Positions 30,235 through 60,050 of a stretch of DNA of 64,000 nt are shown in pieces. This DNA is from Haliclystus octoradiatus. Taxonomy: Eukaryota > Cnidaria > Staurozoa > Stauromedusae > Haliclystidae. Under the pieces are notes generated by a model. The model did no database searches, was not told the origin of the DNA, and worked only from the letters and a program-made list of their open reading frames with translations. The first letter of the stretch is position 1. Each line of letters starts with the position of its first letter. The stretch lies in contig OU744448.1 of NCBI GenBank assembly GCA_916610825.1, forward strand, positions 28,790,107-28,854,106. The letters are read 5' to 3'. Both the position numbers and the translations under genes were made by a program.

Positions 30235-30419
30235 ATTTTACTCTAACAAAATAGTAAATTCACATCTGAATTTTTTAGGTTGATAAATCAAAAGCTCATC
30301 AAAACAAATTCAAACGAAAACTGAATGAAACAATTGTGTTAATCATTAATTATTGAAGTTATTGACATGACTTTTTCATCTTATGACGGGACTTCATCTA
30401 TTCTGTCAAAGTATGTACA

Positions 30420-30905
30420 GGTCGTTGCGCCGAAAATCCGTTGCGTCGAAAGGTTAATACGCCGAAAATCGTTGCACCGAGAGTCCATTGCGCCGAAAAT
30501 CGTTGCGCCGAAAGTCTGTTTCGCCGAATGGTCGTTTCGCCAAAAAGCGATGAGCTGAATGGGCGTTGCGCCGAAAGTCCGTTGCACCGAATGGTAGTTT
30601 TTCGAATGACACCGAGAGATTTATCACGGATCGATATAAAGAATCGATAAGTAGGAGTGCAGGCTATTGCGACGAAAGTCCGTCTCGCCGAAAGGTCGAT
30701 ACGCCGAAAATCATTGCGCCGAAAGCCTGTTGAGCCGAATGGTCGTTGCGCCGAGACCAATATGCCAAAATTCCGTTGCGCCGAATAGCGATGCGTCTAA
30801 AGGCCATTGCACCGAATGGTCGTTGCGCCTAAAGGCCAATATACCGAAATTCCGTTGCGCCGAATGGTCGTTGCACCGAATCACACTGCACCGAAAGTAT
30901 GTTCG
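30420..30905. repeat. Degenerate minisatellite with core 'cgttgcgccgaa'
   Basis: About 25 imperfect copies of a 15-20 bp unit around gttgcgccgaaagtc, far more GC-rich than the surroundings. The block is split by tatcacggatcgatataaag near 30625; this segment recurs just after the array near 30920. Chance reading frames arise in all phases and are not genes. Confidence 0.85.
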
Positions 30906-31499: not shown

Positions 31500-31936
31500 A
31501 GACTTTTGTGAAGAGATTAAGGAGATATCAGTTAATGAACGTGATTTACTTGTATCTTATGATGTGTGGTCTCTATTCACTAATATCAACGCTTCAGACC
31601 AGTTTATACTAGTAAGAAAATAGTAGACGATTTGAGAGTTCGTGAGCCGAGACCGACCCTTGTGTCTCGCCAATGCGTTGTGTATCATTTTCAGTGTGAT
31701 TCGTGCGATGCGAATTATGTTGGTTTTATACGCCGACACCTCCATCAACGCATTGGTGATCATGGTGGGTCGGCCGTCGACAAACACTTGAAAACCCATA
31801 ACAAAAGTTACAGGAAATCTGCCCACATGTTTTCAGTTGTTCGAAAATGCAACTCAAAATTTGACTGTTTGGTACATGAAATGTTGGCAATCAGGAAGCT
31901 AAAACCGACTCTTAACATTCAAAGCGATTCAATTAA
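31495..31936 (+). pseudogene. Penelope-like element, RT N-part joined to GIY-YIG endonuclease
   Basis: On the + strand, DLLVSYDVWSLFTNI (about 31536-31580) is the RT motif that should precede the segment found inverted next door. After about 40 bp it is followed by VVYHFQCDSCDANYVGF, RHLHQRIGDH and HEMLAIRKLKPTLN. Those are the GIY-YIG-type endonuclease domain of Penelope-like elements, with the two-Cys insertion. The central RT is missing on this strand. The endonuclease frame runs into a MITE at 31937, which supplies a false C-terminus up to 31994. Confidence 0.85.
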
Positions 31937-32135
31937 AGGGGCAAGATTGACCGGCGACCGCTGCGAGCACAAGTTGAATTTATGCTTAGCGTAATTCAAC
32001 CGTCTCGCTTTGAAACTATTGTTCTACGCAGGCCTAATCTGTTATAAATTCATGTCAACAATGTACATTGTGTTATGAACAATAAACATGCACGTGATCC
32101 GAAGTGCGTAGCGCCTGCCGGTCATTTTTGCTCCT
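31937..32135. mobile_element. 199-bp TTAA-flanked MITE, copy 1
   Basis: Terminal inverted repeat AGGGGCAAGATTGACCGGC / GCCGGTCATTTTTGCTCCT, bounded by TTAA on both sides (31933-31936 and 32136-32139). Length and ends match the copies at 32140 and 47751. TTAA target duplication is the piggyBac signature; the class is inferred from that. Confidence 0.9.
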
Positions 32136-32139
32136 TTAA

Positions 32140-32338
32140 AGGGGCAAAATTGACCGGCGACCGCTGCGAGTACAAGTTGAATTTATGCTTAGCGTAATTC
32201 AACCGTCTCGCTTTGAAACAATTGTTATACGCAGGCCTAACTTGTAATAAAATTCATGTCAACAATGAACATTGTGTTATAACAATAAGCGTGCACGTGA
32301 TCCTAAGTGCGTGGCGCCTGCCGGTCATTTTTGCTCCT
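32140..32338. mobile_element. 199-bp TTAA-flanked MITE, copy 2 (abutting copy 1)
   Basis: Same family and orientation as copy 1, separated from it only by one shared TTAA (32136-32139). Its right TTAA is 32339-32342. Sequence differences are scattered, so the pair need not be a simple duplication. Confidence 0.9.
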
Positions 32339-32857
32339 TTAAGTCGTGACTTTTAGTTTAATTGTTTCCTTTGTCACAGCGTTCTATTGTCTATATATCT
32401 GTAGGTTTTCGTAATTCTCTCTTTGTAAACAATAGCCATAGAATGTTAAATTTATATCTTAGCACAATTTTACCTATATATATCTTGTAATTTCATATAA
32501 TATTTCTTTTAACCTTGAAAATGACAACAGCAATGTCGAAACGTCGGAATAAATTTAATCGTGATTTTTTGTCGCTATCTTTCATAGTTTATAATGCCAT
32601 ATTTAAATAATTATCGGTTGTTTGGTATTTTCATAAATTTCTTGAAATCGACGGAGTCAAGCTCGGCTATGGTGAAATGGCGTTATTGACGTTAACCAAT
32701 CAAATTGCAAGAATAAATCGTAGCAGATCCTTGATATGTTCTAATATGTCATATGTGACCCTCCTTTGTTTTGCCTGTCAATTTTGACAAAATAAATGAA
32801 ATAAAATAAAATAATCTGCCACTTTGTTTTGAAAATTATAGAGCGTGACGTATTTTC
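32339..32857. other. Non-coding spacer
   Basis: Contains 'gaaaatgacaacagcaatgtcgaaacgtcgg' around 32515-32550, a motif often found just downstream of Penelope endonuclease domains, so it may be the tail of the Penelope element split by the MITEs. No gene is seen. Confidence 0.4.
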
Positions 32858-32970: not shown

Positions 32971-32976
32971 TTTATT
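32971..32976 (-). terminator. Poly(A) signal, peptide gene 1
   Basis: AATAAA on the minus strand 116 bp after the stop codon, in sequence conserved in all three paralogues. Confidence 0.6.
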
Positions 32977-33091: not shown

Positions 33092-35224
33092 TTATTTCTT
33101 TCCCCAGAATGTGCGTCGGCGCCAGTAAAGAGTTCTACGTCGATACAAAAGAATTCTGCGGCGCCAGTAATGAGTTCTGGGGCGAATGGAAATTAGACGA
33201 CGACGGCGACGACGACGACGACGACCCCATGGCTTGGCTTTTGGGTCTGAACTCTCTCCTGAGAAATAAACAAAAACATTTAGATAAATAAGATGATAGG
33301 ATCCAGTATCAATGCATTATACAAGGTGCAATGTTCAAAGACTAGCAGAACAATTGCATCAACAAATTCCACAACATGCTGCAAAAATTTAAATTGTCCT
33401 ACAATTTTTATACTACTATTTTCTGAAATTTTATACAGGAAAGAAATATAACTTGTCAAAATTTCCAAAACTTTTACAGTCTTCTTTTTGTAAGTGCTTT
33501 CAAAAATTTTAAATACGCCAGTTTGAAGCAAGCATTTACTTCGTAGTTATATTACGCTCTATAAAAGTTGTCTAATCAAATGGCGACAGTATCTAATGAT
33601 GAAAAATGACACCAAATATTCCACAACAGGCTATACTGCAAAGCACAGTTGTCCTACAATTTTTATGCTACGTTCAAAATATTTGGGTAGACTAAACCTT
33701 TTATCAGTTTCTCCTCCTCCTCAGAAGATTCGATAATTAAATTGGAAGACATTTTGGTAGTATAAATTTTTCTCATATGTATAACCCGATGTAGTTTACT
33801 TAATTATAGTCAGATCGTAATACAGCGGTTGCGCAAAACGTGTAAAGCAGTTTTACAATTTCCTTACCATCTGATTTTTCCTCAATATCATTTCCTTCAT
33901 CTGAAATAATTAATTAAAAATTTGATTGAAATTAAAATTAAGTTCAATAAAAGTTAAATTGTGATTGTATTAGTTGAAAATCAATATTGACATTAACACT
34001 ATAGTTAAATTTAATTGAAAATCAATGTTGAGTTGAAACATGATTGAAAGTCACTCCAACGTTATAAAACCAATCAAATGGCTTCCCTGAATGAATTACT
34101 ATGGAAAACATTCTAACAAAGATTTTCAATTGGTATACCAAATACGTCAATATACTTCAAAATTTGCAACAAGATCAAAGTCATCAAGTTGTCACTAAAT
34201 GCCCAGAGTACAGAAAGTTACAGAGGAACATTTTCCCGTTCAGTCATGCCTAATAACTGCACTCAAAACACATTTTGTAAGTACTGTAGCATCAGGGAGT
34301 GAGTCTCCTCGAGCTGAAGGGATCACTCTACTACCAGTTATTCAATCGAGAGCCTGATAACAAGCATTAGAGATTTTACTATGGAAAATATTAATACAGC
34401 AAATCCGCAAACTCTAAATCCTTTAATCCGCAATTTCATAAATTCTCCACACACCTTCATCTTCAACTTCATCGTCAACTTCATCGTTTTCTTCTTGTGA
34501 TAATTCTTCGTCGTGTTCTTGATGATCATTTTCATGATCTGAATTTACTTCTCTGCCTGATATAAAATAAATATCTTTTAAATGTTGCACCAAATACGCA
34601 CTTGCATTGCATATATGTACTTTGACGTTTGGTTCATAGATAATTCCAAGTTTAACATGTATTCGATCCTATTCCAAGGGTTAATCAATGCTCCTTTGTT
34701 ATTCATATGAAAATTTCACACAATTTAGCATGGACGAACTTCTAATGTGATACGGGATAGAAATTTACGAATCCTATTTTATATAGTATAAAGTTTGAGA
34801 AAATGTTGGTTGTTATCAAAACTGAGTTTTCAGTCGCAAGCAACATGGCAAAATGTGCCCGAAATTATGCACACAATGTCTTAAGTGAATGAATTTGACA
34901 GAAATGAAGGCAAGACACCCAACATATGTAGCATAAATGATATAAATATAGGTCCCCGTGATCTTTGCGTTGTGGCTCTTGGACTTGTTTAAGCGGCAAA
35001 TACTGCTCTTGTGAAAGGAGTAGGAAAACAGGGAGTTCTCAAACTCCGTTCAAGATATAAAACAATAGGATCCGAACATGTATTATATTATTTATTTATA
35101 TACCGGCATAGCTAATTGGTATGTATAGCAAAATGATGAGTCTAATTTTTAATGCCATAAATTTCTTACCTGCCAAAGCAAGGGTAACTCCGAAGAGCAA
35201 AACAATAACGAGTGTTAATTTCAT
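33092..35224 (-). CDS. Secreted precursor with acidic pro-segment and Arg-Trp heptad repeats, paralogue 1
   Basis: Coding exons on the minus strand: 35170-35224, 34455-34556, 33868-33900, 33092-33258. All introns are GT/AG and phase 1; the product is 118 aa. Exon 1 is exactly the signal peptide, MKLTLVIVLLFGVTLALA. Exons 2 and 3 encode a pro-segment with about half its residues Asp/Glu (ELSQEENDEVDDEVEDE, DEGNDIEEKSD). The last exon reads SSDPKAKPWG, nine consecutive Arg, then heptads ending in PRTHYW, RRRILLY, RRRTLYW and RRRTFWGKK-stop. The final Gly-Lys-Lys is a classic amidation signal after cleavage. Function is unknown: antimicrobial peptide with an acidic mask, or multi-copy short-peptide precursor. 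This copy has the longest Arg run and the most degenerate heptads (R to P, ILLY). Splice sites come from sequence only; no transcript is available. Confidence 0.78.
33698..33731 (-). other. Possible extra exon or conserved intronic block, paralogue 1
   Basis: Between coding exons 3 and 4 the minus strand reads ESSEEEEKLIK followed by AAAAG|GTTTAG, a possible donor. The equivalent blocks at 44838-44871 and 50022-50055 differ by whole codons (ESSSSEEKLIK, ESSEEEKLIK), as if translated. I could not find an acceptor that joins it in phase with the neighbours, so I left it out of the models. Confidence 0.3.
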
Positions 35225-35725
35225 CTACAAAAAGAAAATATTGTATAAAAACAGTTTGTAAGTTTTCTGTTTTCATGCCGATATCATAAACAATGTATTG
35301 AATACAATTTACAGTACAACATTAAACAGAATTATCGGGGGATATAATATACTTGGCTCCCGTTGCTATTCTAATTCAAGAATGAAGTAACTCATTCACA
35401 ATTTAAATGATACATAAAAAAGTAAGTTAAATTTTTAAAAATAAGCTGGATTATTACTCGCTCACATTTCGAAATGTTATTTATATATAAACAGTATTAG
35501 AGTACTGCAAATATACAGAGACAGTTTGTAAGGCAAACGAACAAATCAGGTGTTTCAGAGATCAAATGTGCAATATCGTATATTTTCTGTGTAATACTTC
35601 GCAGATCGGTAATATCTACTAACTAGCTAATTAGCTGATAGCTATAGTAGCCTAAAGCAGTCAGTAAGATTTATAGCATAATAATCATACACAGAATAGA
35701 ATAATATGCTAACAACTTGTCTTAC

Positions 35726-35803
35726 CTTGAAATATTAATTGGGTTGCCTGTAGTGTCTGAAAATTTCAAAGTACTTTTTGACTTTACACATCAGAATTTA
35801 TAC
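35726..35803 (-). promoter_or_regulatory. TATA box and noncoding first exon, peptide gene 1
   Basis: TATAAAT on the minus strand at 35797-35803. About 70 bp downstream is the donor TCAAG|GTAAG at 35726/35725, closing a first exon without ATG. The next exon opens with its acceptor TTTTTGTAG directly before the start codon. The same layout is present in all three copies. Confidence 0.65.
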
Positions 35804-36645
35804 TGAAAACAACTCAAATATAGGGACCTGGACTCTATAGGTTGCAGTTGAGCAATTAAAATTGCTTATATGTTCTGTATATATTCGAAACAGGACACTT
35901 TCTGTCCATTGGATACAGATAGCTGGGTTGGGTGTTTTTCGATTCCTATCAGTCCTGTGAAAAAAAGCTCCTGTAGCTTATCAGGTTCTGAATAAATGAT
36001 GATGATGATGATGATGATTATAATTGTATTGGATATATTAAAACCGAGATCTACCAAAAATTTCAAAGGATCATATATATGAACAAAACAAAAAACGGAA
36101 ATAGCTACAATAGGTTTATATATAGGAGACCATTCAGTTAACTTAGGACTCAATTAAGCCATTTATTTTCGTTTATAGTTTAGATATATACTATGGTAAC
36201 TCTCGTGACCCATGAAAACCTTTTACGTTATCTTTCACGCTTCATAGTTCGACTTATATTCTGGAATTTGGAATCAATAGAATTAGTAAGAAAATACAAT
36301 ATAATGATCAGAAGAGGAACTGTTTTGGACACATTTACAATACATTCAACTGTTTGAAAATTTCGAATGACGATATATATAATTATGAGATGTGTTGAGA
36401 AATCCTGCAATAACTCAATTCCAATCCCATCCAACAATAGCATTTTCATAATCATCTAACTGTCAGCTATATTCTATCATATATGAAATTCTAGCAATGT
36501 CTTACCGCATTGCTGTGTTATCTGGGTTAGTTTTTGCTGAATTAAACTACATTCTATGCAATTTCTCTGCAATTTTCTTAATATTTCTAATTAAAATTGA
36601 TTTTTTGAATCTTTTTATTTTTTAAATATGACTGTAAATTGTATT

Positions 36646-37339
36646 AAGCAATTGGTGCACAGTTTCCTATGAGCTACTTATATCTGGCGCACGAGAGGCA
36701 AGTAATGAGAAAACGAGAAGGCGTCAGAAGATTACGAGCCACCTCGGCGAATAATTTTCACCTTCGATTTTTCTCCTGAAGTGACCCCTAAATCAAATAA
36801 TAACATCAGATAATCAATACCAAATGGTTAAATTTGCTGTCAGCTGTAGCCCTTTGGTATAATGTGGTAGAATTAACTATAAAATATGGAATATGATTTA
36901 AATTGTAAGATATCCGTAATTAGCCTCATTTTAGTTATGCGTCACATTCATGTAAGTTCAATATTTAATATTATAATTCTTGTTTTAGTTTCCTGACAGT
37001 CCTCTTGAGTAAGAAAAACATTTAACACGAACTGTACACAGTCTCGTCATTTTGTTTATTATTACCGAATTAGTATATTACCACAACCCCACAATTGGTT
37101 CGTCGACATTTAACCAGTCATTGTACCTAATTGGAGAACTCAATTTTATTATTTCATCGTACTATTCCATTCATTTATCTTACTACCATTTATCAATTAC
37201 CTCACATCTATTATCCATAATACACAATTTATTTGGCATTACATTATTCACACATCTCAAAGTATTATTCAAAGACATCACATATTCAAATTCAAGGTAC
37301 ATTAATCTCTATCTCTACATTTAATCATTCTGAATAATC
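36646..37339. other. Probable leader of the first Ty3/gypsy element
   Basis: No conserved gene. The AT-rich stretch immediately precedes the gag start at 37340 and probably holds an LTR or leader, but I could not identify a matching second LTR. Confidence 0.35.
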
Positions 37340-38760
37340 ATGTCTCGCAATAGTGATTCACCTTCAACTTCAGGCACTCAAAACCCACCCGGCACTCCCG
37401 GTGCACCTAAGGAGACACAACGACCACTTTTACCTGACCGTTTGAATACATCTTCCATTACTATCAAACCACCACCATTTTACAAAAATAACCCTCAAGC
37501 TTGGTTTGATCAAATAGAGAGCCAATTTACGATTCGTGGCATCAATTCAAGCGTCACAAAATACCATGCACCATGTTGTTTCTGTCCTTTCTGAAGATAT
37601 TGCTATCCTTACTTTGAATTCTTCCGCTGCCGCGGATACGTACAAGTATGAACTTTTGACTACAACCACCCTTTCATTGTTAGAAAAATCAAAACAAAGC
37701 CGCGTAAGCGAAATATTAGATACGCAAGACCTTGGCGGAGACACACCAACAATATTTCTGAGACAAATAATTAACCGTTTGTCTCAATGTGAAGTACCTG
37801 CCTCAGAAATAATTTTAAAGTCAAAACTTTTGCAATGTCTCCCCAATAGAATTACGCACCACGCTCAGCGCGTTCCAGGATGAGCCTGCTGAGAAGCTTG
37901 CAAAGATCGCTGACCACATATTGGCCATTAATTTATCTGGCACCGCTGCAGCTGTAGGCAGCACACCACCAGCCACATATAATAGTCATCAATACACAAA
38001 TACATCTAGTTATTCTACTACATATCAACCACGTCAAAATTAACAAGCAGCCACACCCTCCTATCATACTGCTATTCCCCGTGAAGTACAACCGTTTCAC
38101 GAAAATCAACAACCTAAAGTTTGTCGAGCACATCTATATTACGGACGTCTTGCTCGCTCATGCCGACATTGGTGCCAATTTCCCAGTGATGCCCCTGTTC
38201 TACCTTCATGTGCCAATACTCCATCTCCATCTCGATCCGCTTCACCTGAGCGACAGGGAAACTAGATCATGCTGCTAATTCCGCCGCGATTAGTGACGAA
38301 GAATCAACTATTGCGGTACACAAACGATATTTTACTGCAAGGAAATTTCTCATCACATCGATATAACTCTTTATTAGACTCCGGTTCTACTACAGTATTT
38401 CCATTATACCTCGCAATTATTTATCACCATCTAAATTTCAACCATGTAATATTAATCTAACTTCTGCTAATGGTAAATCTATCAATGTTTATGGACAATA
38501 TCGTATCTCTATCTCGTTCAAATCATTACGTCGTTCATATACATGGACTTTTATTGCTGCTGACTTTACACATCCGATTATTGGTTGGGATTTTTTATCA
38601 ATAAATATACTTATTTTAGATTTTAGTCGTAAGTCAATTATTGATCCTCTTACTAATTTTACTGTTCCCTTGACAACCGCTACTGTATCATCTGATTCAT
38701 CTATTATCTCAAATATTAACATTCCAGAAAGTTTTTCTCAATCTATTCAAACATTAATTT
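37340..38760 (+). pseudogene. Ty3/gypsy element A, gag and protease remnants
   Basis: The gag start MSRNSDSPSTSGTQNPPG leads into IKPPPFYKNNPQAWFDQIES and QFTIRGINSS, the usual metazoan gypsy gag opening. A frameshift near 37560 is followed by DTPTIFLRQIINRL. Further frameshifts lead to the aspartic protease: SLLDSGSTTVFPL (active-site DSG, about 38365-38405), ANGKSINVYGQYRISISF and THPIIGWDFLSINI. There is no reverse transcriptase, RNase H or integrase; the element stops near 38760 where a different gypsy begins. It is clearly inactive. Confidence 0.85.
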
Positions 38761-38769
38761 GTAAGACTA

Positions 38770-41700
38770 TGGTTGATGTGAGGGAGACATAAACGACACA
38801 GTAATTGATTCAAATAATTATCATGTCAACTGGTCCCTCGATGAACTCTAAACACGAGTCTCCTCACTTGACTTCAAACTCTGTTTTTATATAAAAACAA
38901 ACACCGCTGACCTGTGACCTGCCATACCGCAGTCAGCTTACAGACTTTACAAGTTTATATTACATCACAGCTACGATCACAGTAATGGACAATACCACAT
39001 ACAGATTGGCGAAATATTTAGTATTTGCAGAAAAACAATCAACGATAAGCTTCAAAAATCTGGTTATAAAAGTGGCAGAACGCAAAGCGCCAGCAAGAAA
39101 TGAAGTGGTGGAAAGATTACAATATTGTAACTTTGGAGATGGCCTGGATATTCAACTCAGAGATAGATTTGTTTACGGGTATCGAAGACCAAACCATGCT
39201 TCGAAAGTTATCATGTAAACATAAGCTAAAACTAAATAAAGCGATTGAAATAGGTTTGGCAATTGAACAATCTCTCAAGAATACGGACAATATTTCAAGT
39301 CACCAAACATCAGATAACGCGACAATCGATGTATAAACTCAGTTAGAATCGACAAATCGAGTTGAAAAAAGACAAACGACTATAATAAGTCTAATCAGAA
39401 AAGAGGGCGTTCAACATACAGTGAAACGTTTAGACTGTACCTAACCTAAAACTAAAACCTAAAACTGACGTAAAACAGTTTTGTCATCGTTGCATCAGTG
39501 AGAATCACCTAGCACGGAACTGTAACTTCAAATCTATGAAATGTCATTGTTTGCAAAAACATAGGACACATTGAAAGAGCTTGCGTAGCAAAACACAATT
39601 ATATTGACTAACATACACAACAAGAGACTATCAGATACAGGAGGCATTTGCAGTTCTAGTGAAAACGAATACTGACTTATGCAAATCATCAAAGATAACA
39701 CTGGTAAACATGAAAATTCAATTATGGTGACATCAAGTATTAACTGCAAGCTGCAAGCGCATTCAAATGGAATGGATACAGAAGCATCACGTATCATTGT
39801 TGGACGTTAACTATATACGAGAATAACTTTAATGGTAAACCGCTGGTGTTAATGGTCACAAACATAAAATTAAAGACATACTCAGGTGAGAGAATACCGA
39901 TACGTAGAAAAGTCAAAATTGAGGTTGAAAAAAATGAGGAACAATTTCAAAATTTAAGTCTTATTATAGAGGAAGGAAGTACACCAGCCTTGATTTGGAG
40001 GGATTGGCTATACAAAATACCCCTCGATTGGAAGAATATTTTCCCAATCAATTTTATCAATGGTAAAACAGAACCAAAAGTTAATGAAGTTCTAAGCAAT
40101 TATAGTCATCTTTTCAAAAAGGACGCTATACTGGCGGTAATGTAAAAAATTCATTAAAAAAAATGCTACTCCAAAGTTTTTAAGAGCACGACCAGTACCG
40201 TTTGCAATTCTCCATATGATTGATCAACAAAATTGATAGACTTTAGGCGGAAGGAATGTTTCTCCCTGTGTAACACAGACACAGTAATCGGGCCTCACCA
40301 ACCTTGCATGTTGTTAAACCAGATAAGACAATACGACTATGTGGTGACTTCAGGCCGACTGTAAATTGCAATATTAAATAGATGATTATCGTATACCAGA
40401 TATGAGACTCTGTTCACTAAACTGGATGGCTGTACAGTATTCGTACGCTTATATTTAGCACATACCTGCACCCAACTTACGCTTGAAGAAGACTCACAGG
40501 AACTTTGTACGTTGAATTCACATAGAGGTTTATTTGGATATACACGATTATCATTTGGGATATCTTCAGGCCCTGCACTTCTTCAACGCGTAATATGTGC
40601 TGCAAGCAGCACTCCAGTACTAACCCAACGCCTCGAAAAGGTATTCAAGTTCACGCCTTCAGAAAGCAGGACTGAGGCTCAAGCGGCAGAAGTGTCAATT
40701 CATCTTACACAGAAAAGACAAATTCGGCTAAGAATCGAATGTATGCTCACGTCAACTGAAATTGGTGTTTAACAAATGAATGGTTGGATGCGGTCGCAAG
40801 TACTTTTCTGCAGTTTCATAAAGCTTGTAAATTCGTATTATTGGAAGATTAATTTGATTTATAGATTCAAAAAGTTACTTCTGTGCCTAGTTGTTTACTC
40901 AACATTGTTGCTGGCGTGTTTCATGTCTTATTTATGCCCCTGTGAGAAAAGTTACAAGGATTAGAAGACAGAACGTTTTCGTTGCCAGATTATTCAAATT
41001 TTACAGGTTGACACATTACTTTTTGGGAATATTACTATATATAAATACTGGAATAATGCATTGAAAGTGAATCACATTCTTTACTCTTTTTCAATGATGA
41101 CAGCGAAGGAAAAAGGTAGTTCAATGCAGTTATAAAGCCACCAGCAATTTCCATTGAACGTTACATTTTTGGCGCCGTTTTCTCGCTCGTTTTCTTTCTA
41201 TGAAGACTATGACGATCAAACATGAGTTTTATATATGTAAGAAGTATTATAATAGCAAAAAATAGTATATTTCATGACAATTAATGCAAAATATATCTAT
41301 GATGTATTTTATAATAGCCTGTGCCGTGTGCTGAGCCGTCCAACACATGCGTTTTAGTCTTACAAAGATGGTGTAGTTATTATATGGCTATATATATTTC
41401 ACAAAGTGGATTTTCCCTCTGCCGTGTTGAACGTGAACAGTGTCACAACTCTGGTGAAGTCTATATAGAAGTAGAATGAATCAAATTTTGTCGAGAAGAA
41501 ATCAGCCCTATAACTCGATTGAAATCAAAACGTTTGTGACTAACATTGAAATCATATAATTTATGTCCAATTAATTGCATATTAATTGTATTTCAAAGTC
41601 CTAATGATATTGTAGTTTAATAAGAAATCAATAGAAGTTTACTCTTTGCTTTGCAATTTTTGTCACCGATTTACATGCAGATTTATTTTCCTCATAACAA

Positions 41701-42890
41701 TGACAACAAATTTAATGTGAAATTCAACATTTAAAATTATCTTTAGACTAACAAATTCTAAGATTCAAACTCATTTTGATAAATTAATTGGTTAAAATGA
41801 AACAGCATATTGCTCTGTTTTGCGGTACTTCAATTTATATTTTACTTAAGTCACGTGATGTAAATACCCATTTCAAGTCACGTGATTTCTTAGCCGAATT
41901 TGTCTATTGACTTTTTGGGGGCATAGAGTTAATGTAAGGGGATTAAAACCACTGCCTGCGAAAATTGATGCTATCTGCAAAGCACCGGCACCAAAAGACT
42001 TAACGCAGCTTAGGGCGTGCCTTGGTCATTTAATTATTATGCAAAATTTGTACCAAGCACTACAGAGTAGTTAGCTCCCTTATATGAATTATTGAACCAA
42101 GATACAACTTGGCATTGGGATACTTCAAAAGATATTGCTTTTCAAAATGCAAAATAGCCATGGAATAGCAATAGTCTCCTGTTTCATTATGACCAAATCT
42201 ACCCATAAATTTATCATATGGGATTAGCGCAGTAATGTCGCATATACATCCAAACAGAGACGAAAAAGATAATTACATGTGCATCAACAACACTCAATTC
42301 ATTAAAAAAGAATTACTCACCAACTGAAAAAGGGGGGATAACAATCATATTTGTTGTTGAAAAATTTCATCTTTATTTATATTGAGTGTCATTTCAAAAT
42401 TATTAAAGATCACAAACCATTGATCACTCTGTTCTCAGAACATAAAATGACTACGAAGTTAGCAGCAGCATCCAGATTGATGCGTTGGTCACTTCATCTG
42501 TCACAGTACGAAACTAAAATAGTACATCGCCATGGAAGATTTATTACATCTGAATGCAGATTCTTTCAGTCGCCTACCAATGGGGTCACAATTAACCTAG
42601 CAAGAAGAAAACGTCGGACCCTTCAGACACAATTAATTCGGTTGAAACACTACAACAGAGTGCAATTCATTCAATAAACTTTACAAAGCTTTAAAAATGA
42701 CCCTCTGATCAGTACGTTAGCATAACATATCAAGTGCTCAGTCGTGATGATGCAAAGCATTTTTCTGTTAAATTGTATGAGCTAAGCACACACCTAGACT
42801 CTCTGTTGTGGGGCTCAAGAGTACTGGTTCCACAATAGCGACAAAAAGCGCTTGAAATGCTTCATCAGAGGGATCAAGAGACGGTAGAAA
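38770..42890 (+). pseudogene. Ty3/gypsy element B, degraded gag-pol with a ~1.2-kb interruption
   Basis: A TATA-bearing leader (about 38895) precedes a gag at about 38985. Identifiable pieces in order: RLQYCNFGDGLDIQLRDRFV (gag), CHRCISENHLARNC (zinc knuckle, about 39482-39525), LKTYSGERIPIRRKVKIEVE and LIWRDWLYKIPLDWKNI (protease C-terminus, 39860-40050), and RGLFGYTRLSFGISSGPALL (RT, about 40525-40580). After an unrelated segment from about 40780 to 41935 comes KPLPAKIDAICKAPAPKDL followed by QLRACLGHL (RT connection), then DHKPLITLFSEHK and RLMRWSLHLSQYE (RNase H, 42400-42520). Stops and frameshifts break every domain. No integrase is seen. This belongs to a different lineage from element A. 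Confidence 0.85.
41848..41885. repeat. Two TCACGTGA palindromes 27 bp apart
   Basis: 'aagtcacgtgat' occurs twice at 41848 and 41875, each an 8-bp E-box palindrome. They lie in the segment interrupting gypsy element B. A transcription-factor role is possible but there is no adjacent gene. Confidence 0.4.
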
Positions 42891-43773
42891 TGAAAGGATT
42901 AGCATGCGGTTTCATCTGGTAGCAGGCTATTGACAAAGATATTAGGTATCTGTTTATCATAGTTTGAGTTTATATATTATTATATTGTAAGTTAATAGCT
43001 GTATTATTAGACATTCTATTAATTGTTAACAACTTTTAACAGTGTGTGTGTGTGTTATTTTATTTCAGTTGATCGTAACCAAAATGTGATCAAGATATAG
43101 GGTCAACATTTTCCTTCTACTGAAGTATTTTTGAATTTTTAGAATAAAATTCAGAAATTCGTAATTTTAATTTAGATTTAAATCTTTTTAGCATAGTTTG
43201 AAATTTTTTTTTATTAGCTTTAATTAGTTATTTTAGGGCTTTTCAAATGTATACTAGACTGTTGTAATTAGTTTTAATTTAATTAAGTATGATAGGATTT
43301 TATGGTAATTTTTTTTAAGGTTATTAAAGTTGCAAGATTTTAAGGTTTTTTTAAGGACCCTTTTTTATATATTATGAAATGGGATTATTAATTAATTTAC
43401 AAGTGAAGAACCTTAATTTTGTGGATTAATCAATGGGTTGCCTAGATTAATTTCGGGGCTAATGGGCTTCAAAATCCCCCCACCTTTTACATCAATATTC
43501 ATACGTGTTACGAAACATACATTTATCGAAAGAAAGAAACAAATACAGATAAATGATAATATAATTCAATAAAGCATCTTAAATAGTCTTGGATAAAATT
43601 GTCGGAGATTAAAAGCTCACCAAATTTCATAAATAATCACCATTTTTCAAACACTTCCAATTCTGTTGAATTTTTGATATTATTTTAAATTTACTTATAT
43701 AATTTTATAAATTAAATTTAATATAATATAATATAATATATAATAAATATAATATAAATTTATATTATTTTAG

Positions 43774-43926
43774 ATTGATGTAGAAGTACGCTTCAAAGGT
43801 GATGATGAAAAAACGAGGGGGCCCAGAGTTATTGCAAAAAATGTATTCTATAGGAATTTTTATGCTGCTACAGATGTTGCCATGAAAACACCAATGAATC
43901 CTAAAGGTGCTGCCACACCGTCATGA
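43774..43926 (+). pseudogene. Orphan terminal exon of an unknown gene
   Basis: Preceded by the acceptor-like tatattattttag, the + strand has 50 open codons to a TGA: IDVEVRFKGDDEKTRGPRVI, then AKNVFYRNFYAATDVAMKTP and a Pro/Ala/Lys tail. The composition looks like real protein, and the C-terminal end tolerates silent change between copies. No other exon of such a gene is present here. KGDD-x4-GPRVIAKNV is loosely like the last strand of a cold-shock domain, but I do not claim that. It was probably captured by the duplication and separated from its parent gene. Confidence 0.5.
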
Positions 43927-44117
43927 CGTGATATAAATATGCCTAAACTCTTTCCCGCAATATGGATTGACAACCAAATTACCTACAATCATAACAAAAC
44001 TTCTATTTCAAAATGGTGTACTGTTCCCAAGCCTCCTTAATTAATAATTACAGATAGTGAGCAAACTTTGGAGAAGAAAATCTTTTTGTAGGTAATATAC
44101 TGTAATTTCAAAAGTAA

Positions 44118-44123
44118 TTTATT
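44118..44123 (-). terminator. Poly(A) signal, peptide gene 2
   Basis: AATAAA on the minus strand 116 bp downstream of the stop codon, at the position equivalent to gene 1. Confidence 0.6.
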
Positions 44124-44238
44124 TGTAAATATTCATATAAATATGTACAAATTGAAAATTGCGTGACTTTAGAAATATCATTATAAAGCAGCCTCTCGCT
44201 AAGTTATACTATAGCGGTAATTTGGATTATCTCAGTAA

Positions 44239-46353
44239 TTATTTCTTTCCCCAGAATGTGCGTCGGCGCCAGTAAAGAGTTCTGCGACGCCAGTAAAGAG
44301 TTCTGCGGCGCCAGTAATGAGTTCTGCGACGAAAGGTAATTAGACGACGACGGCGACGACGAATAAGCCATGCTTTGGCTCTTGGGTCTGAACTCTCTCC
44401 TGAGAAATAAACAAAACATTCAGATAAATAAGATGATAGGATCCAGTATTAATGCATTATACAAGGTGCAATTTTCAAAGACTAGCAGAACAATTGCATC
44501 AACAAATTCCACAACATGCTGCAAAAATTTAAATTGTCCTACAATTTTTATACTACTATTTTCTGAAATTTTATACAGGAAAGAAATACAACTTTTCAAA
44601 ATTTCCAAAACTTTTACAGTCTTCTTTTTGTAATTGCTTTCAAAAATTTTAAATACGCCAATTTGAAGCAAGCATTCACTTCGTAGTTATATTACGCTCT
44701 ATAAAAGTTGTCTAATCAAATGACAACGGTATCTAATGATGACAAATGACACCAAATATTCCACAATAGGCTATACTGCAAAGCACAGTTGTCCTACAAT
44801 TTTTATGCTACGTTCAAAATATTTGGGTAGACTAAACCTTTTATCAGTTTCTCCTCAGAAGAAGAAGATTCGCTAATTAAAATGGAAGACATTTTGGTCG
44901 TATAAATTTTTCTCATATGTATAACCCGATGTAGTTTACTTAATTATAGTCAGATCGTAATACAGCGGTTGCGCAAATCGTGTAAAGCATTTTGCAATTT
45001 TCTTACCATCTGATCTTTCCTCAATATCATTTCCTTCATCTGAAATAATTAATTAAAAATTTGATTGAAATTAAAATTAAGTTCAATAAAAATTAAATTG
45101 TGATTGTATTAGTTGAAAATCAATATTGACATTAACACTATAGTTAAATTTAATTGAAAATCAATGTTGAGTTGAAACATGATTGAAAGTCACTCCAACG
45201 TTATACAACCAATCAAATGGCTTCCCTGAATGAATTACCATGGAAAACATTCTAACAAAGATTTCAATTGGTATACCAAATACGTCAATATACCTCAAAG
45301 TTGGCCACAAGCTCAAAATTCATCAAGTTGTCACTAAATTCACAGAGTATACAAAAAAGTTACAAAGGAACATTTTCCCGCTCAGTCATGCCCAATAATT
45401 GCACCCAAAACACATTTTGTTAGTACTGTAGTTTCATGGAGTGAGTCTCCTCGAGCTGAAGGGATTACACAACTACCAGTTATTCAATCGAGAGTCTGAT
45501 AACACGCATTAGAGATTTTACAATGGAAAATATTAATACAGCACATCCGCAAACTCTTAACCCGTTATTCTGCAAATTCATAAATTCTCCACACACCTTC
45601 ATCTTCAACTTCATCGTCAACTTCATCGTTCTCTTCTTGTGATAATTCTTCGTCGCGTTCTTGATGATCATTTTCATCATCTGAATTTACTTGATTGCCT
45701 ACTATTAAAAAATATTTTTTAAATGTTGCATCAAATACACACTTGCATTGCATATGTACTTTGACTTTTGGTTTATAGATAATTCCAAGTTTAACATGTA
45801 TTCGAACCATTTCCAATGGTTGATCAATGCTACTTTGTTATTCATATCAAAATGTCACACAATTTAGCATGGACGAACTTCTAATGTGATACGGGATAGA
45901 AATTTACGAATCCTATTTTATAGCATAAAGTTTGAGAAAATGTTGGTTGTTTTCAAAACTGAGTTTTCAGTCGCAAGCAACATGGCAAAATGTGGCCAAA
46001 AAATTATACTCACAGTGTATTAAGTGAAGAAATTTGACAGAAATGAAGGCAAGACACCCAAGATATGTGGCATAGTTGATGTAAGTAAAAAGTCAGCGTT
46101 TTCTGTTTGTTGAGGTTCCTGGACTGTTTTAAGCTGCTAATGCTGCTCTTGTGAAAGGAGTAGGAAAACAGGGAGTTCTCAAGCTCCGTTCAAGATATAA
46201 AACCATAGGATATATTACTTATTTGTATACCAGTATATAGCTAATTGGTATGTATAGCAAAATAATGAGTATAACTTGTCAGGCCATGAAATTCTTACCT
46301 GCCAAAGCAAGGGTAACTCCGAGGAGCAAAACAATAACGAGCTTTAATTTCAT
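44239..46353 (-). CDS. Secreted precursor with acidic pro-segment and Arg-Trp heptad repeats, paralogue 2
   Basis: Coding exons on the minus strand: 46299-46353, 45597-45698, 45007-45039, 44239-44399. The product is 116 aa, with the same phase-1 architecture as the other copies. The signal peptide is MKLKLVIVLLLGVTLALA. The pro-segment contains NSDDENDHQERDEELSQ and DEGNDIEERSD. The last exon follows a good acceptor (tttatttctcag) and encodes SSDPRAKAWLI, six Arg, LITF, then RRRTHYW, RRRTLYW, RRRTLYW and RRRTFWGKK-stop. This is the most regular array: each heptad is three Arg, Thr, His or Leu, Tyr, Trp. Because the DNA unit is 21 bp, another phase also stays open (repeats of QNSLLA), but only the Arg frame agrees with the phase-1 donor of the previous exon. 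A secreted, proteolytically processed peptide is inferred; the activity is unknown. Confidence 0.8.
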
Positions 46354-46863
46354 CTACAAAAAGAAAATATGGTATAAAAACAGTTTGTAAGTTTTCTGTT
46401 TTTATGCCGATATCATAAACAATGTATTGAATACAATTTACAGTACAACGTTAAAACAAACTTATCGGAAGATATAATATACTTGGCTATCGCTGCTATT
46501 CTAATCCAAGAATGAAATAACTCATTCACAATTCAAATGATATATAAAAAAGTAGTTAAATTTTTAAAAATATGCTGGATTATTATTCGCTCACATTTCG
46601 AAATGTTATGTAATATATCTATTTAGGACAGTATTATAGTACAGCAAAAATATACAGAGATAGTTTGTAAGGCAAACGAACAAATCGGGTGTTTCAGAAA
46701 TCAAATGTGCAATATCGTATATTTCCGTGTTATACTTTGCAGATCGGTAATATCTACTAACTAGCTAAATAGCTGATAGCTATAGTAGCCTAAAGCAGTC
46801 AGTAAGATTTATAGTATAATAATCATACACAGAATAGAATAATATGCTAACAACTTGTCTTAC

Positions 46864-46940
46864 CTTGAAATATTAATTGTGTTGCTTGTAGTGTCTGAAA
46901 ATTTCAAAGTACTTTCTGACTTTAGATGCCAGAATTTATA
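46864..46940 (-). promoter_or_regulatory. TATA box and noncoding first exon, peptide gene 2
   Basis: TATAAAT on the minus strand at 46934-46940 and the donor TCAAG|GTAAG at 46864/46863. The arrangement is conserved with genes 1 and 3. Confidence 0.65.
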
Positions 46941-47750
46941 CTACTAACACCTCGAATATGGGGACCTGGACTCTATAGGTTGCAGTTGAGCAATTGAAAC
47001 TGTTTATTGTTCCGTGTATATTCGAAATAGGACAGTTTCTGTCCATGGGATACGGATAGCTGGGTTGGGTGTTTTATGATCCTTATTATCATTGTATTGA
47101 ACAGATTAAAACTGTTATCTACTAAGCATTTCAACGGATCACAGATAAAAACAAAACAAAACACGGAAATAGCTACAATAGGTTTATATATACCATTCAC
47201 TTCTTAGGACTCAATTCAACCATTTATTTTCGTTTTGTAGTTTAGATATATACTATAATAACTCTCATGACCCATAGAAACCTTTTACGTTATCTTTCAC
47301 GCTTTATGGATCGACTTATATTCTGGAATTTGGAATCAATAGAATTAGTAAGAAAATACAATATAATGATCAGAAGAGGAACTGTTTTGGACACATTTAA
47401 AATACATGCAACTGTTTGCCATTTTCGAATGACGATATATAATTATGAGATGTGTTGAGAAATACTGCAATAGCTCAGAAGCACCTTCAATCCCATCCAC
47501 AATGGTATTTTCATAACCATCTAACTGTAATGCTCTGTTCCAGCATATATTAAATACTAGCAATATCTTACCTAGCCTGTGCGCAGACCTTACTTGAAAA
47601 TCTTACTTCCTCGTTAGTAAGTTACTTACGATGATCTTACTTAAATGTCTTATCCAGGCTGCTGGGTTAGCTGGGTTAGTTGTTGCTGAATTAATACTAC
47701 ATCCAATGCTATTTACTTTTAGTTTTCTCAGTATTCCTAATAAATATTAA

Positions 47751-47949
47751 AGGGGCAAAATTGACCGGCGACCGCTGCGAGCTCAAGTTGAATTTATGCT
47801 TAGCGTAATTCAACCGTCTCGCTTTGAAACTATTGTTATACGCACGTCTAATTTGTAATAAATTCATGTCAACAATGAACATTGTGTTGTAAACAATAAA
47901 CATGCACGTGATCCTAAGTGCGTAGCGCCTGCCGGTCATTTTTGCTCCT
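47751..47949. mobile_element. 199-bp TTAA-flanked MITE, copy 3
   Basis: Ends AGGGGCAAAATTGACCGGC / GCCGGTCATTTTTGCTCCT between TTAA at 47747-47750 and 47950-47953. The equivalent place in unit 3 has a single TTAA at 52678-52681 inside alignable flanks (ttctTAATcaaaTTAAccttgtaaa), which is an unoccupied site. Confidence 0.93.
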
Positions 47950-48166
47950 TTAACCTTGTAAATCTGTTTCTGTTTATAGACATGACTGTAAATTATTTCT
48001 ATTGTACTAAATCTGCTATTACTTATTTCTTCCTTATATGACTTCAGAATACAGTAATAAATTGAATAATTAATTATATTGAATGTAAACTCAACTGATA
48101 CACATATGTATATGAAAGTGTTCAAAGTTGGGTACAACAGAGCATTATAGAGCATGCAGTATCATC

Positions 48167-48448
48167 CAGAGCCATTTATTTACAAGAGTTGGGACACTTC
48201 TGCCATTTTTGTATCTTTTTGCCTGGACCCGAGCACGTTTTTAACAGTGCGCATGTGCAGGAGAATGTTGTGTGTTTTTTCAGCCATATTGTATTGTATT
48301 TTTTCGCGCGTTTCACTTGAAATGATTGAGAACCTGTTATCAAAAGAACAAAGATGGCATCCAAAAATCACGTGACTGGCATCTGTCCAATTGGAGACGA
48401 TAGCGGCTCATGAAAGCGTGTCCCAACTCTTGTAAATAGATGGCTCTG
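48167..48448. mobile_element. 282-bp hAT-like MITE
   Basis: Ends CAGAGCCATTTATTTACAAG and CTTGTAAATAGATGGCTCTG, with the inverted repeat extending through agttgggacac. Flanks GTATCATC and GTTTCATC form an 8-bp duplication with one difference. Unit 2 has the single site GTTTCATC at 42909-42916. It is non-coding; chance frames at 48154-48375 are not genes. Confidence 0.9.
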
Positions 48449-48923
48449 GTTTCATCTGGTGGCAGGGTATTGACAAAGGTATCTGTTTATCATACTTTGA
48501 GTTTTTATATTATTAGTGCAAATTAATAGCTGTATTATTAGACATTCTATTAATTAGGTATTGATGTTTTTTAAGGACCTCTTTTATATATTATGAAATG
48601 GGATATTGTAAAAAATAGATAAATTTATAAGTGCAGAACCTTCATATTTTAGATTGATTAAGGGGATGCCTAGATTAATTTCGGGGCTAGTGGGCTTCAA
48701 AGTCCCCCATTTTTTACATCAATAATCATACATGTTATGAAACATTAATTTATCGAAAGAAAGAAACAAATACAGATAAACGATCATATAATTTAATCAA
48801 AAAATCACAAACGGTCTTTGATAAAATTTTCGGAGGTTAAAATGTTCACCAAATTTCATAAATAATCGCCATTTTTCAAACACTTCCAATTCTGTTGAAT
48901 TTTAGATATTATTTTAAATTTAC

Positions 48924-49086
48924 TTGATTAATGTAGAAGTATGCTTTAAAGGTGATGATAAAAAGCGAGGGGGCCCAGAGGCACAGAGTTATTGCAAAAA
49001 ATGTATTCTATAGGAATTTTTATGCTGCTACAGATGTTGCCATGAAAACACCAGTGAAACCTAAAGGTGCTGCCACACCGTCATGA
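48924..49086 (+). pseudogene. Second copy of the orphan exon, frameshifted
   Basis: The unit 3 counterpart of 43774-43926. It keeps GDD, then VIAKNVFYRNFYAATDVAM and the Pro/Lys/Ala tail. An 8-bp insertion after 'ggggcccagag' and the loss of the acceptor (ttacttgattaatg) break it. The tail reads KTPVKPKGAATPS in place of KTPMNPKGAATPS. Confidence 0.6.
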
Positions 49087-49281
49087 CGTGATATAAATAG
49101 ACCTAAACTCTTTTCCCGCAACTATATGGATTGACAACCAAATTACCTATAATCATAACAAAACTTCTATTTCAAAATGGTGTACTGTTCCCAAGCCTCC
49201 TTAATTAATAATTACAGGTAGTGAGCCAACTGTGGAGAATAAAATCTTTCAGTAGGTAATATACTGTAATTTCAAAAGTAA

Positions 49282-49287
49282 TTTATT
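49282..49287 (-). terminator. Poly(A) signal, peptide gene 3
   Basis: AATAAA on the minus strand 116 bp downstream of the stop codon, conserved in position with genes 1 and 2. Confidence 0.6.
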
Positions 49288-49402
49288 TGTAAATATTCAT
49301 ATAAATATGTACAAATTGAAAATTACGTGACCTTAGAAATATCATTATAAAGAAGCATCTCGCTAAGTAATACTATAGCGGTAATTTGGATTATCTCAGT
49401 AA

Positions 49403-51330
49403 TTATTTCTTTCCCCAGAGTGTGCGTCGGCGCCAGTAAAGAGTTCTACGTCGATACAAAAGAGTTCTACGACGCCAGTAAAGAGTTCTGCGGCGCCAGT
49501 AAAGAGTTCTGCGACGAAAGGTAATTAGACGACGACGGCGACGACGAATAAGCCATGCTTTGGCTCTTGGGTCTGAACTCTCTCCTGAGAAATAAACAAA
49601 ACATTCAGATAAATAAGATGATAGGATCCAGTATTAATGCATTATACAAGGTGCAATTTTCAAAGACTAGCAGAACAATTGCATCAACAAATTCCACAAC
49701 ATGCTGCAAAATTTAAATTGTCCTACAATTTTTATACTACTATTTTCACAAATTTTACACAGGAAAGAAATACAATTTATCAAAATTTCCAAAACTTTTA
49801 CAGTCTTCTTTTTGTAAGTGCTTTCAAAAATTTTAAATACGCCAATTTGAAGAAAGCATTTACTTCGTAGTTATATTACGCTCTATAAAAGTTGTCTAAT
49901 CAAATGGCGACAGTATCTAATGATGAAAAATGGCACCAAATATTCCACAATAGGCTATACTGCAAAGCACAGTTGTCCTACAATTTTTATGCTACGTTCA
50001 AAAAATTTGGGTAGACTAAACCTTTTATCAGTTTCTCCTCCTCCTCAGACGATTCGATAATTAAAATGGAAGACATTTTGGCCGTATAAATTTTTCTCAT
50101 ATGTATAACCTGATGTAGTTTACTTAAATATAGTCAGATCGTAATACAGCGGTTGCGCAAATCGTGTAAAGCAGTTTTGCAATTTTCTTACCATCTGATC
50201 TTTCCTCGATATCATTTTCTTCATCTGAAATAATTAATTAAAAATTTGATTGAAATTACAATTACAAATACCGAGAAATTTGCAACAAGATCAAATTCAT
50301 CAAGTTGTCACTAAATTCACAGAGTATACAAAAAAGTTACAAAGGAACATTTTCCCGCTCAGTCATGCCCAATAATTGCACCCAAAACACATTTTGTTTG
50401 TACTGTAGTTTCAGGGAGTGAGGTTCCTCGAGCTGAAGGGATCACACAACTACCAGTTATTCAATCGAGAGCCTGATAACACGCATTAGAGATTTTACAA
50501 TGGAAAATATTAATACAGCACATCCGCAAACTCTAAACCCGTTATTCCGCAATTTCATAAATTCTCCACACACCTTCATCTTCAACTTCATCGTCAGCTT
50601 CATCGTTCTCTTCTTGTGATAATTCTTCGTCATCTTCTTGATGATCATTTTCATCATCTGAATTTACTTCATTGCCTACTATTAAATAAATATTTTTAAA
50701 ATGTCGCATCAAATACACACTTGCATTGCGTATGTACTTTGACTTTTGGTTTATAGATAATTCCAAGTTTAATATGTAATCGAACCATTTCCAAGGGTTG
50801 ATCAATGCTACTTTGTTATTCATATCAAAATGTCACACAATTTAGCATGGACGAACTTCTAATGTGATACGGGATAGAAATTTACGAATCCAATTTTATA
50901 ATATAAAGTTTGAGAAAATGTTGGTTGTTTTCAAAACTGAGTTTTCAGTCGCAAGCAACATGGCAAGATGTGGCCAAAAATTATACTCACAGTGTCTTAT
51001 GTGAAGAAATTTGACAGAAATGAAGGCAAGACACCCAAGATATGTGGCATAGTTGATGTAAGTAAAAAGTCAGCGTTTTCTTTTTGTTGAGGCACCTGGA
51101 CTGTTTCAAGCTGCTAATGCTGCTCTTGTGAAAGGAGTAGGAAAACAGGGAGTTCTCAATCTCCGTTCAAGATATAAAACCATAGGATATATTACATAAT
51201 TATATACCAGTATATAGCTAATTGGTATGTATAGCAAAATAATGAGTCTAATTTGTCAGGCCATAAATTTCTTACCTGCCAAAGCAAGGGTAACGCCGAG
51301 GAGCAAAACAATAACGAGCGTTAATTTCAT
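49403..51330 (-). CDS. Secreted precursor with acidic pro-segment and Arg-Trp heptad repeats, paralogue 3
   Basis: Coding exons on the minus strand: 51276-51330, 50574-50675, 50192-50224, 49403-49584. The product is 123 aa. The signal peptide is MKLTLVIVLLLGVTLALA. The pro-segment has NSDDENDHQEDDEELSQ, DEADDEVEDE and DEENDIEERSD. The final exon has one heptad more than paralogue 2: RRRTLYW, RRRTLYW, RRRTLLY, RRRTLYW, then RRRTLWGKK-stop. Unit-number change in steps of 21 bp, with all frames intact, suggests slippage or unequal exchange within a translated array. Here the terminal Phe-Trp of the other copies is Leu-Trp, while the GKK end is unchanged. Tri-Arg spacers would be substrates for furin or prohormone convertases. 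Bioactivity is unknown. Confidence 0.8.
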
Positions 51331-51834: not shown

Positions 51835-51911
51835 CTTGAAATATTACTCGTGTTGCTTGTAGTGTCTGAAAATTTAGAAGTATTTTCTGACTTTAGATGC
51901 CAGAATTTATA
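51835..51911 (-). promoter_or_regulatory. TATA box and noncoding first exon, peptide gene 3
   Basis: TATAAAT on the minus strand at 51905-51911 and the donor TCAAG|GTAAG at 51835/51834, as in genes 1 and 2. Confidence 0.65.
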
Positions 51912-58500: not shown

Positions 58501-58887
58501 CTGCATTTTTAGTCTGCTAATTAGAGTCGAAGAAGCGTATGAGCTTACAGCTCCGGTATCCAATAACGCTCTACATTTGATACCGTTGGCTCTTACTATT
58601 ACTACAGGGTATGTTACATCTTTTGATGCAGCAGTTGTCAGTGCTTGTTCCTTTTGTGGTTTTGTTGCAGTGTGGTTGCCTTCGCATATTGACGTGTGAT
58701 GTCTTCTAGAGCAGTTAGAACATTTCCATTTACTCTTGCAATCAGCAGCTCTGTGATCCATTTTTGTGCAGTTGAAACATCGTTTCTCTTTCATCAATAG
58801 TTTTCTTTCACTAATATCTTTAACTTTTGTACATTCTGATGATTTATGGTCTTGCTCTTCGTCTTTATAGTAACACAGCTTCTCCAT
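55520..58887 (-). pseudogene. BEL/Pao retrotransposon protease and pol, broken
   Basis: In element order: zinc knuckles CFNCTKMDHRAADC and CSNCSRRHHTSIC; aspartic protease CRALLDTGAVSSYASS; reverse transcriptase IVYDASAKENTNRPSLNNCL, then RFTRALFGLVQSPFMLAATI and the CLYVDD box; integrase zinc finger H-x4-H...CFEC (56610-56700), GIDYAGPI and MSRAPWWGGQFERI; and the terminal tract GHWTLGIVKELIYG. There is an internal deletion. After the YVDD box the frame passes from FQLHKWNS almost directly to KQLIDLCWNGPIWLEDA, so the RT thumb and RNase H are gone. The integrase also lacks the block with its second Asp. Frameshifts occur near 57520, 57340, 56775, 56260 and 55900. It is inactive. Confidence 0.9.
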
Positions 58888-59106
58888 GATGATTGTCTTG
58901 TATTAAATATTTTGTCCCTTTTATGTTTATATCTGTCTGTATTCTGACGATCTTCAGAAACATGATTTCTCTCAGTCCATTGCCAAAGTGCTTCGGTTAG
59001 ATGGTTGAACTTCCATTCTTGCCAATTGTTATCTGTTCGTACTAAAATCTGATCGTATACCAGGTAATTTGTCCAATGTCATTCTTACGTAACCGTTGAT
59101 TTCTGT

Positions 59107-59955: not shown

Positions 59956-60050
59956 TGTAACTATATATGAATAGTTTAATCTCCAATAATTCTGTGTTGT
60001 ATAATTCGGAATGTAGTCTCAAAATTCTTCTTCCATCATGGGTGCCACTT

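Follow-up and report, generated by a model that had tools for sequence, protein, structure and literature searches.

A staurozoan family of secreted precursors with acidic pro-segments and arginine-rich cargos, probably encoding host-defence peptides

A 64,000-nucleotide stretch of chromosome 3 of the staurozoan Haliclystus octoradiatus (C4:28790107–28854106; hereafter, the window) contains three tandem genes, A, B and C, each encoding a small secreted precursor composed of a signal peptide, an acidic pro-segment and an arginine-rich C-terminal part, here called the cargo. The mitochondrial COX1 of the genome has an open frame when TGA is read as Trp, and its conserved stretches look normal by eye under code 4 but not under the ascidian code. 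All three lie on the minus strand between window positions 33092 and 51330, with the exon borders given by the sequence-only reading that had first described them. Its account of a common exon design with phase-1 introns is borne out, as all nine coding introns are GT–AG and in phase 1. In each gene, a 55-bp exon that ends one base into a Gly codon encodes the signal peptide, exons of 102 bp and 33 bp encode the acidic pro-segment, and the last exon, 161–182 bp in length, encodes the cargo; all exons are thus shorter than 190 bp, as had been reported.

In gene A (123 amino acids), exon 1 (51276–51330, window positions here and below) encodes the signal peptide MKLTLVIVLLLGVTLALA and the first base of the Gly codon, and the acceptor of the preceding intron directly abuts the ATG. 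Exon 2 (50574–50675) and exon 3 (50192–50224) encode the acidic pro-segment. The last exon (49403–49584) encodes the end of the pro-segment, a ladder of X-Pro/X-Ala dipeptides, the Arg/Trp heptads, GKK and the stop codon. The ladder, DP-RA-KA, was placed at 49556–49573 by counting by hand from the exon start; the putative trimmed cargo, with Trp at both ends, would occupy 49415–49555 and is followed by the amidation signal GKK (49414–49406). Gene B (116 amino acids) has its signal peptide exon at 46299–46353, its acidic exons at 45597–45698 and 45007–45039, and its last exon at 44239–44399 (ladder, 44388–44371; putative cargo, 44370–44251; then GKK and stop). The corresponding exons of gene C (118 amino acids) are at 35170–35224, 34455–34556, 33868–33900 and 33092–33258. 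Its last exon comprises the ladder DP-KA-KP (33247–33230), the putative cargo (33229–33104), GKK and stop, with an internal Gly-Arg after KAKPW, just after 33229.

Between signal peptide and cargo, Asp and Glu account for 51–57% of residues, in line with the earlier estimate of about half for the two middle exons. The last exon runs in the same order in all three genes: an Arg tract, heptads of the RRRT(L/H)YW type and W-G-K-K-stop. This too is as originally described, except that the heptads of gene C are near-exact in part only. The alternative phase, which encodes ‘QNSLLA’ repeats and had been named as one way in which these gene models might fail, is interrupted by two internal stops in A and by one in C, and is open in B only. 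Intron identity among the copies is 89–96%, and protein matches to the last exon across the whole genome return gene B at E = 1e-20 and gene C at E = 2e-13; the similarity of the three genes is therefore beyond chance. A motif scan found no fourth family member in the window.

Conservation and splice signals also point to a 5′ non-coding exon upstream of each gene, on the same strand, at 51835–51880 in A (donor after 51835), 46864–46909 in B and 35726–35771 in C. The putative exon starts were placed about 30 bp past a TATAAAT motif (at 51911, 46940 and 35802, respectively), which sits 76 bp before the last base of the exon in all three genes. The intron that follows is 501–510 bp long and its acceptor ends exactly at the ATG. 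After the stop codon, each gene carries an AATAAA polyadenylation-type signal on the minus strand (49282–49287 in A, 44118–44123 in B and 32971–32976 in C).

The family is much larger than the three members first proposed. Similarity searches of the genome (261,861,806 bases, 33 contigs), the counts of which are lower bounds, revealed at least 29 family last exons on four chromosomes (C4, C1, C10 and C11, the last being chromosome 9). On C4 they lie at 28.82–28.91, 33.39–33.49 and 33.90–34.13 Mb. Sixteen of the 29 belong to the main set of modelled genes; of the other 13, three are near known copies or on C10. Eleven models are complete. The other five are partial, because a signal exon was not found in the 1.7–2.2 kb upstream of their exon 2. 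The phase pattern is the same in all 16, and the 11 complete models all start with MKL, have exon lengths modulo 3 of 1, 0, (0) and 2, and encode a signal peptide, then an acidic segment, then a cationic C terminus. Precursors are 81–144 amino acids long and cargos 27–71 residues (16 modelled genes). Among eight representatives, mean pairwise identity is 0.82 for the signal peptide, 0.46 for the pro-segment and 0.58 for the cargo, the last value being inflated by arginine. As exons of under about 260 bp are easily overlooked by simple open reading frame (ORF) calling, a family of this kind could readily escape notice.

The cargos are of several types. Gene D, 56 kb outside the window and with one donor tentatively modelled as GC, has nine HRRR units and ends in FPFGKK. 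In genes E–H and K, RRR mostly alternates with stretches of two to four further residues, bulky ones for the most part. The cargos of I, M, P939, P943, P902, L067, L069 and L071–L073 are of shorter types with a few Arg runs of greater length, and some of them have a hydrophobic tail. Several copies look broken: exon 2 of the copy at 34021632 contains a stop, only the signal exon is seen at 34087653, and the copy at C10:17053270 has lost its end. Four others (L066, L074, L075 and 34024091) are without a clean G-K/R end.

Some loci show additional features. A divergent gene pair is present twice on C4, at 33.937–33.946 and 33.982–33.999 Mb (L056, L057, L059 and L060), and the two copies are 98.6–100% identical through their introns, which marks this, judging by the identity, as a very recent segmental duplication. 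Gene K (C1:36675624–36675819, loci L043–L045) has its acidic exon 2 in two copies, EPMNDDLEFDQEDG and EPMNDDLENDQEDG; the model uses one of them, and using both would add negative charge. DNA searches for further members are hampered by repeats in the introns of family genes (L055, about 1654–1860; L023, about 5515–5710), as these repeats have many genomic copies.

None of the four precursors tried against Pfam-A (A, H, D and M, of the 16 modelled) scored above the curated cut-off. Gene A has no match at E ≤ 1 in the protein database, nor does its cargo in the PDB. A search of the protein database with a profile built from 11 precursors gave two matches with E of 0.1–0.2 (P0001 and P0002). We take these by eye to be bacterial proteins with twin-arginine-type N termini, and they end in Arg4–5/aromatic repeats like those of the jellyfish cargo; the resemblance is probably convergent. 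None of the papers in the literature searched contains any of six sequence words of the family, and no description of it was found among the matches listed, in the accessible parts of the papers and with subscription papers and the Ensembl annotation outside the scope of the search. The claim that the family is undescribed therefore stands to that extent.

Two processing signals recur throughout the family. The first is the ladder of X-Pro/X-Ala pairs before the cargo, with at least one pair in 29/29 last exons, at least two in 28/29 and three in 18/29. The ladders are of the types SA-DP-KP, RA-DP-KP, RA-DP-EP, DP-RA-KA, DP-KA-KP, KA-DP, RA-NP, DA-RP, DA-AP-KP, DP-KP and KP, and the residue that follows them is F in 14, W in 8, L in 5, I in 1 and T in 1. 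The mean run is 2.6 pairs compared with 1.38 when the first 12 residues of 15 representatives are shuffled, and none of 5,000 shuffles reaches 2.6. Pro and Ala swap at the second position among paralogues while the first position varies, a pattern that a dipeptidyl-peptidase substrate would conserve. Trimming may end before or after KP, because a K-P start is itself N-terminally protected, and Pro-protected N termini such as X-Pro are reported for cnidarian neuropeptides. The second signal is G-(K/R)1–2-stop, found in 24/29 last exons and in all 16 modelled genes.

An internal Gly-Arg is found in half of the modelled cargos (C, F, H, I, K, P943, P997 and P902) and is absent from the others (A, B, D, E, G, M, P939 and P983); among seven further cargos checked, four have it (L067, L070, L071 and L072). 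It directly follows the first block in seven of the eight modelled cases (KAKPW, KPFW, KPWF, TRSW and RPFLF). In the form KPFW-GRRR, it is possibly a second amidation site that would release short amidated heads.

The charges of pro-segment and cargo are closely matched. The boundary between the two was set after the first D/N-P/A encoded by the last exon, with a following K-P or R-A-K-A counted as cargo. In the 16 modelled genes, the pro-segment carries −12 to −28 and the cargo without its G-K/R tail +10 to +27, and in every gene the two add up to between −5 and +2, or to between −3 and +3 once the C-terminal tail is counted. The five partial models might still lack an acidic exon that went unseen. 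For the two C11 genes, both partial models, the charge sums are +1 and +1. Pro-segment and cargo charges are correlated (Spearman 0.90 for the 11 complete models, 0.93 for eight representatives and 0.94 for all 16), and the mean absolute sum is 1.8 compared with 5.7 on random re-pairing (p = 0.0001; 11 non-near-identical genes). Near-balance with a cargo this strongly charged offers a testable rule for storing a dangerous polycation.

The signal exon is under purifying selection between the distant paralogues E (C4) and K (C1): it differs by nine synonymous and no non-synonymous changes (p = 5e-6), and the introns of these genes no longer align. The ratio of non-synonymous to synonymous substitution rates (dN/dS) for the same pair is 0.17 for the pro-segment and 0.43 for the last exon.

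These features suggest that A–C, arranged in tandem, belong to a large staurozoan family of precursors that would yield host-defence (antimicrobial) peptides, linear, amidated and cationic, from behind a charge-matched pro-segment. We regard this as probable on the strength of the sequences, and we infer the processing steps, the amidation and the antimicrobial activity from the same source. The signal peptide would route the chain into the secretory pathway, where the Asp/Glu-rich pro-segment may mask the Arg-rich cargo and so spare the cell’s own membranes and nucleic acids. At maturation, cleavage of the pro-segment would follow acidic residues; processing at such residues is reported for cnidarian preprohormones, those of staurozoans included. 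A dipeptidyl peptidase would then strip X-Pro/X-Ala pairs up to the bulky first residue, or halt at a Pro-protected K-P terminus, and a carboxypeptidase would take off the final K or KK, so that the exposed Gly becomes a C-terminal amide. In the window, the released peptide would consist of Arg triplets alternating with bulky residues, an unusual peptide design; the arginines may bind anionic bacterial surfaces, into which the Trp, Tyr, Phe, Leu and Ile side chains may insert. The original suggestion of a defence or signalling peptide thus holds for secreted, cationic precursors with acidic pro-segments and G-K/R ends that most likely serve defence, with signalling as the lesser rival; blood cells, proposed as a tissue for expression, are inapplicable to a cnidarian.

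Several points weigh against a defence role or soften the evidence for it. The cargo could be cut up, because convertases also cleave at Arg runs and an internal Gly-Arg is present in half of the modelled cargos. Helical amphipathicity is low in the heptad type, with a maximum 18-residue moment of 0.37–0.39 in genes A–D (0.38 for arminin 1a, a peptide of Hydra, on the same measure); a classic amphipathic helix is therefore not indicated for these cargos, and we set that candidate aside. Within the window, dN/dS ranges from 0.17 to 1.15 overall and is 0.32–1.07 for the last exon and 0.40–1.15 for the pro-segment, but because the changes are few, selection there is left undecided. Finally, because the paralogues share a history and are not independent samples, the statistics on charge and ladder lose weight and the p-values are optimistic.

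If the Arg runs do act as convertase sites, the genes would encode neuropeptide-type precursors, from which short peptides would be freed (TLYW and THYW, with a final amidated TLW or TFW) or, in part of the family, an amidated head released by a cut at an internal Gly-Arg (KPFW-amide or KPWF-amide). We consider this unlikely, although it fares best among the alternatives. The blocks are flanked by basic runs, the last block of A–C ends in W-G-K-K, and X-Pro starts and W-amides are known in medusozoan neuropeptides; the internal Gly-Arg described above is the best point in its favour. That dipeptide is missing, however, from eight modelled genes, A and B among them. The blocks elsewhere shrink to LI, II or LL, which would make poor ligands, and cleavage sites do not need a pro-segment whose charge matches that of the cargo. 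A published staurozoan neuropeptide survey has three families, none resembling these precursors, but it admitted only those with three or more similar peptide copies that are each followed by a processing site of their own. On that criterion the genes point both ways: A–D do have repeated blocks between Arg runs, yet their G-K/R is at the end only (plus the one internal Gly-Arg in C), and in the eight genes with an internal Gly-Arg it occurs once or twice, never once per block.

Less likely still is a role in venom or stinging cells, in which the cargo would be a cationic cytolysin kept in store together with its acidic pro-segment. The signal and pro regions of A and M match Pfam Conotoxin at 17.4 and 12.4 bits, both below the cut-off of 25.1, and 10 of the 11 complete precursors are without cysteine, the single one of D being in its signal peptide. 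Venoms do contain peptides, melittin among them, that are cationic and amidated and have an acidic pro-segment trimmed in dipeptide steps.

We think it very improbable that the cargo is a polycation that serves in adhesion, for instance as peduncle glue, in the matrix or in binding nucleic acids, rather than as an antimicrobial. Blocks of opposite charge in one chain could form coacervates, and Staurozoa live attached; yet the G-K/R ends and the trimming ladder suggest small released peptides, and the cargos of the modelled genes have 27–71 residues. Least probable of all is a tandem-duplicated relic of decaying, unexpressed repeats: several copies outside the window do look broken or shortened, but A–C are intact, with splice sites and TATA-like and poly(A) signals, and purifying selection is seen between E and K.

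Elsewhere in the window, a single-exon gene on the minus strand (7182–7991) encodes a 270-residue fatty-acid elongase (Pfam ELO, E = 9e-67). It may be a retrocopy, because the remaining relatives in the genome are matched in fragments only. A 438-residue stop-to-stop ORF (28921–30237, minus strand) has no Pfam match at E ≤ 0.001 and looks by eye like a membrane-anchored protein. Tandem arrays of GTTGCGCCGAA-like units lie at 30423–30895 and 31933–32342, together with a 203-bp unit present twice at 93%. Several long ORFs at about 55520–60018 (minus strand) presumably belong to a BEL/Pao-type retroelement.

Among known systems, promelittin offers a parallel in processing: it reportedly matures by stepwise dipeptidyl-peptidase action (Kreil is said to have described this in 1980), with an acidic pro-segment and an X-Pro/X-Ala ladder before an amidated cationic peptide, as in the family described here. 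The ladder of the family, unlike that of promelittin, has only one to three steps, and no sequence relation is claimed. Frog-skin preprodermaseptins combine a conserved signal exon and an acidic spacer with a diverse amidated cationic peptide, and resemble the family in all three. In ascidian styelin and botryllin, according to the accessible part of their description, a cationic peptide is cut from a secreted pre-propeptide, as we propose for the staurozoan precursors.

Contrary to what the sequence-only reading had supposed, the architecture itself is not novel, since it is that of the Hydra arminins and of placozoan ‘arminin-like’ peptides; homology in sequence is not demonstrated. The placozoan peptides (Trichoplax AMP1–4), which in the accessible text owe their name to architecture and were compared here by description only, likewise have a signal peptide, an acidic N-terminal part, a basic C-terminal part and a C-terminal Gly for amidation; at about 150–250 amino acids they are longer than the staurozoan precursors. 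In Hydra arminins the negatively charged N-terminal region is conserved, whereas the positively charged C-terminal one is barely so. As far as the accessible parts of the sources go, their paralogues lie mostly in one genomic locus, the published pattern for Hydra antimicrobial peptides is one of clustered, expanded families with bipartite charge, and arminins and the staurozoan family share the signal peptide, the acidic N-terminal and cationic C-terminal parts, an amidation-type Gly end and clustered paralogues (for the family, the groups on C4). The same sources, within that limit, describe the genes of Hydra antimicrobial peptides as found in a single genus, where they probably arose de novo, and the reviews and a 2024 genome survey give arminins as restricted to Hydra, with no homologue in Hydractinia or Clytia.

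The comparison of sequences took in the arminin 1a peptide alone (KPWRF...VGKK), rather than arminin pro-segments. Arminin 1a is non-repetitive, whereas the cargos of the window genes, D–H and K are built of Arg-triplet/bulky repeats; two C11 members, however, start with KPW and end with GKK just as arminin 1a does. A search of the PDB with arminin 1a gave one match, chain Crov539 (E = 0.0075). L071 (C11), the best of the 29 last exons against arminin 1a, has an alignment score reached by none of 50,000 composition shuffles; with three residues at each end kept, p is 0.007–0.01, uncorrected for the 29 tries. Against a profile of 15 cargos, arminin 1a reaches 2.1 bits, no better than its own shuffles (p = 0.26, or 0.22 with the ends kept). 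The family is thus built like arminin on the evidence of its sequences, and membership by descent is not established. We tentatively raise the possibility, which we hold to be less likely than its converse, that arminin-type peptides are not a Hydra invention and that the staurozoan family shares their origin. The origin would then be recognisable in the C11 copies (KPW, Arg-rich, Pro-containing, GKK), and the chromosome 3 branch would have been rebuilt by expansion of Arg3/bulky repeats under the rule that pro-segment and cargo cancel in charge. With a look-alike family in a second medusozoan class, either the origin of arminins reaches far back or the same design arose twice.

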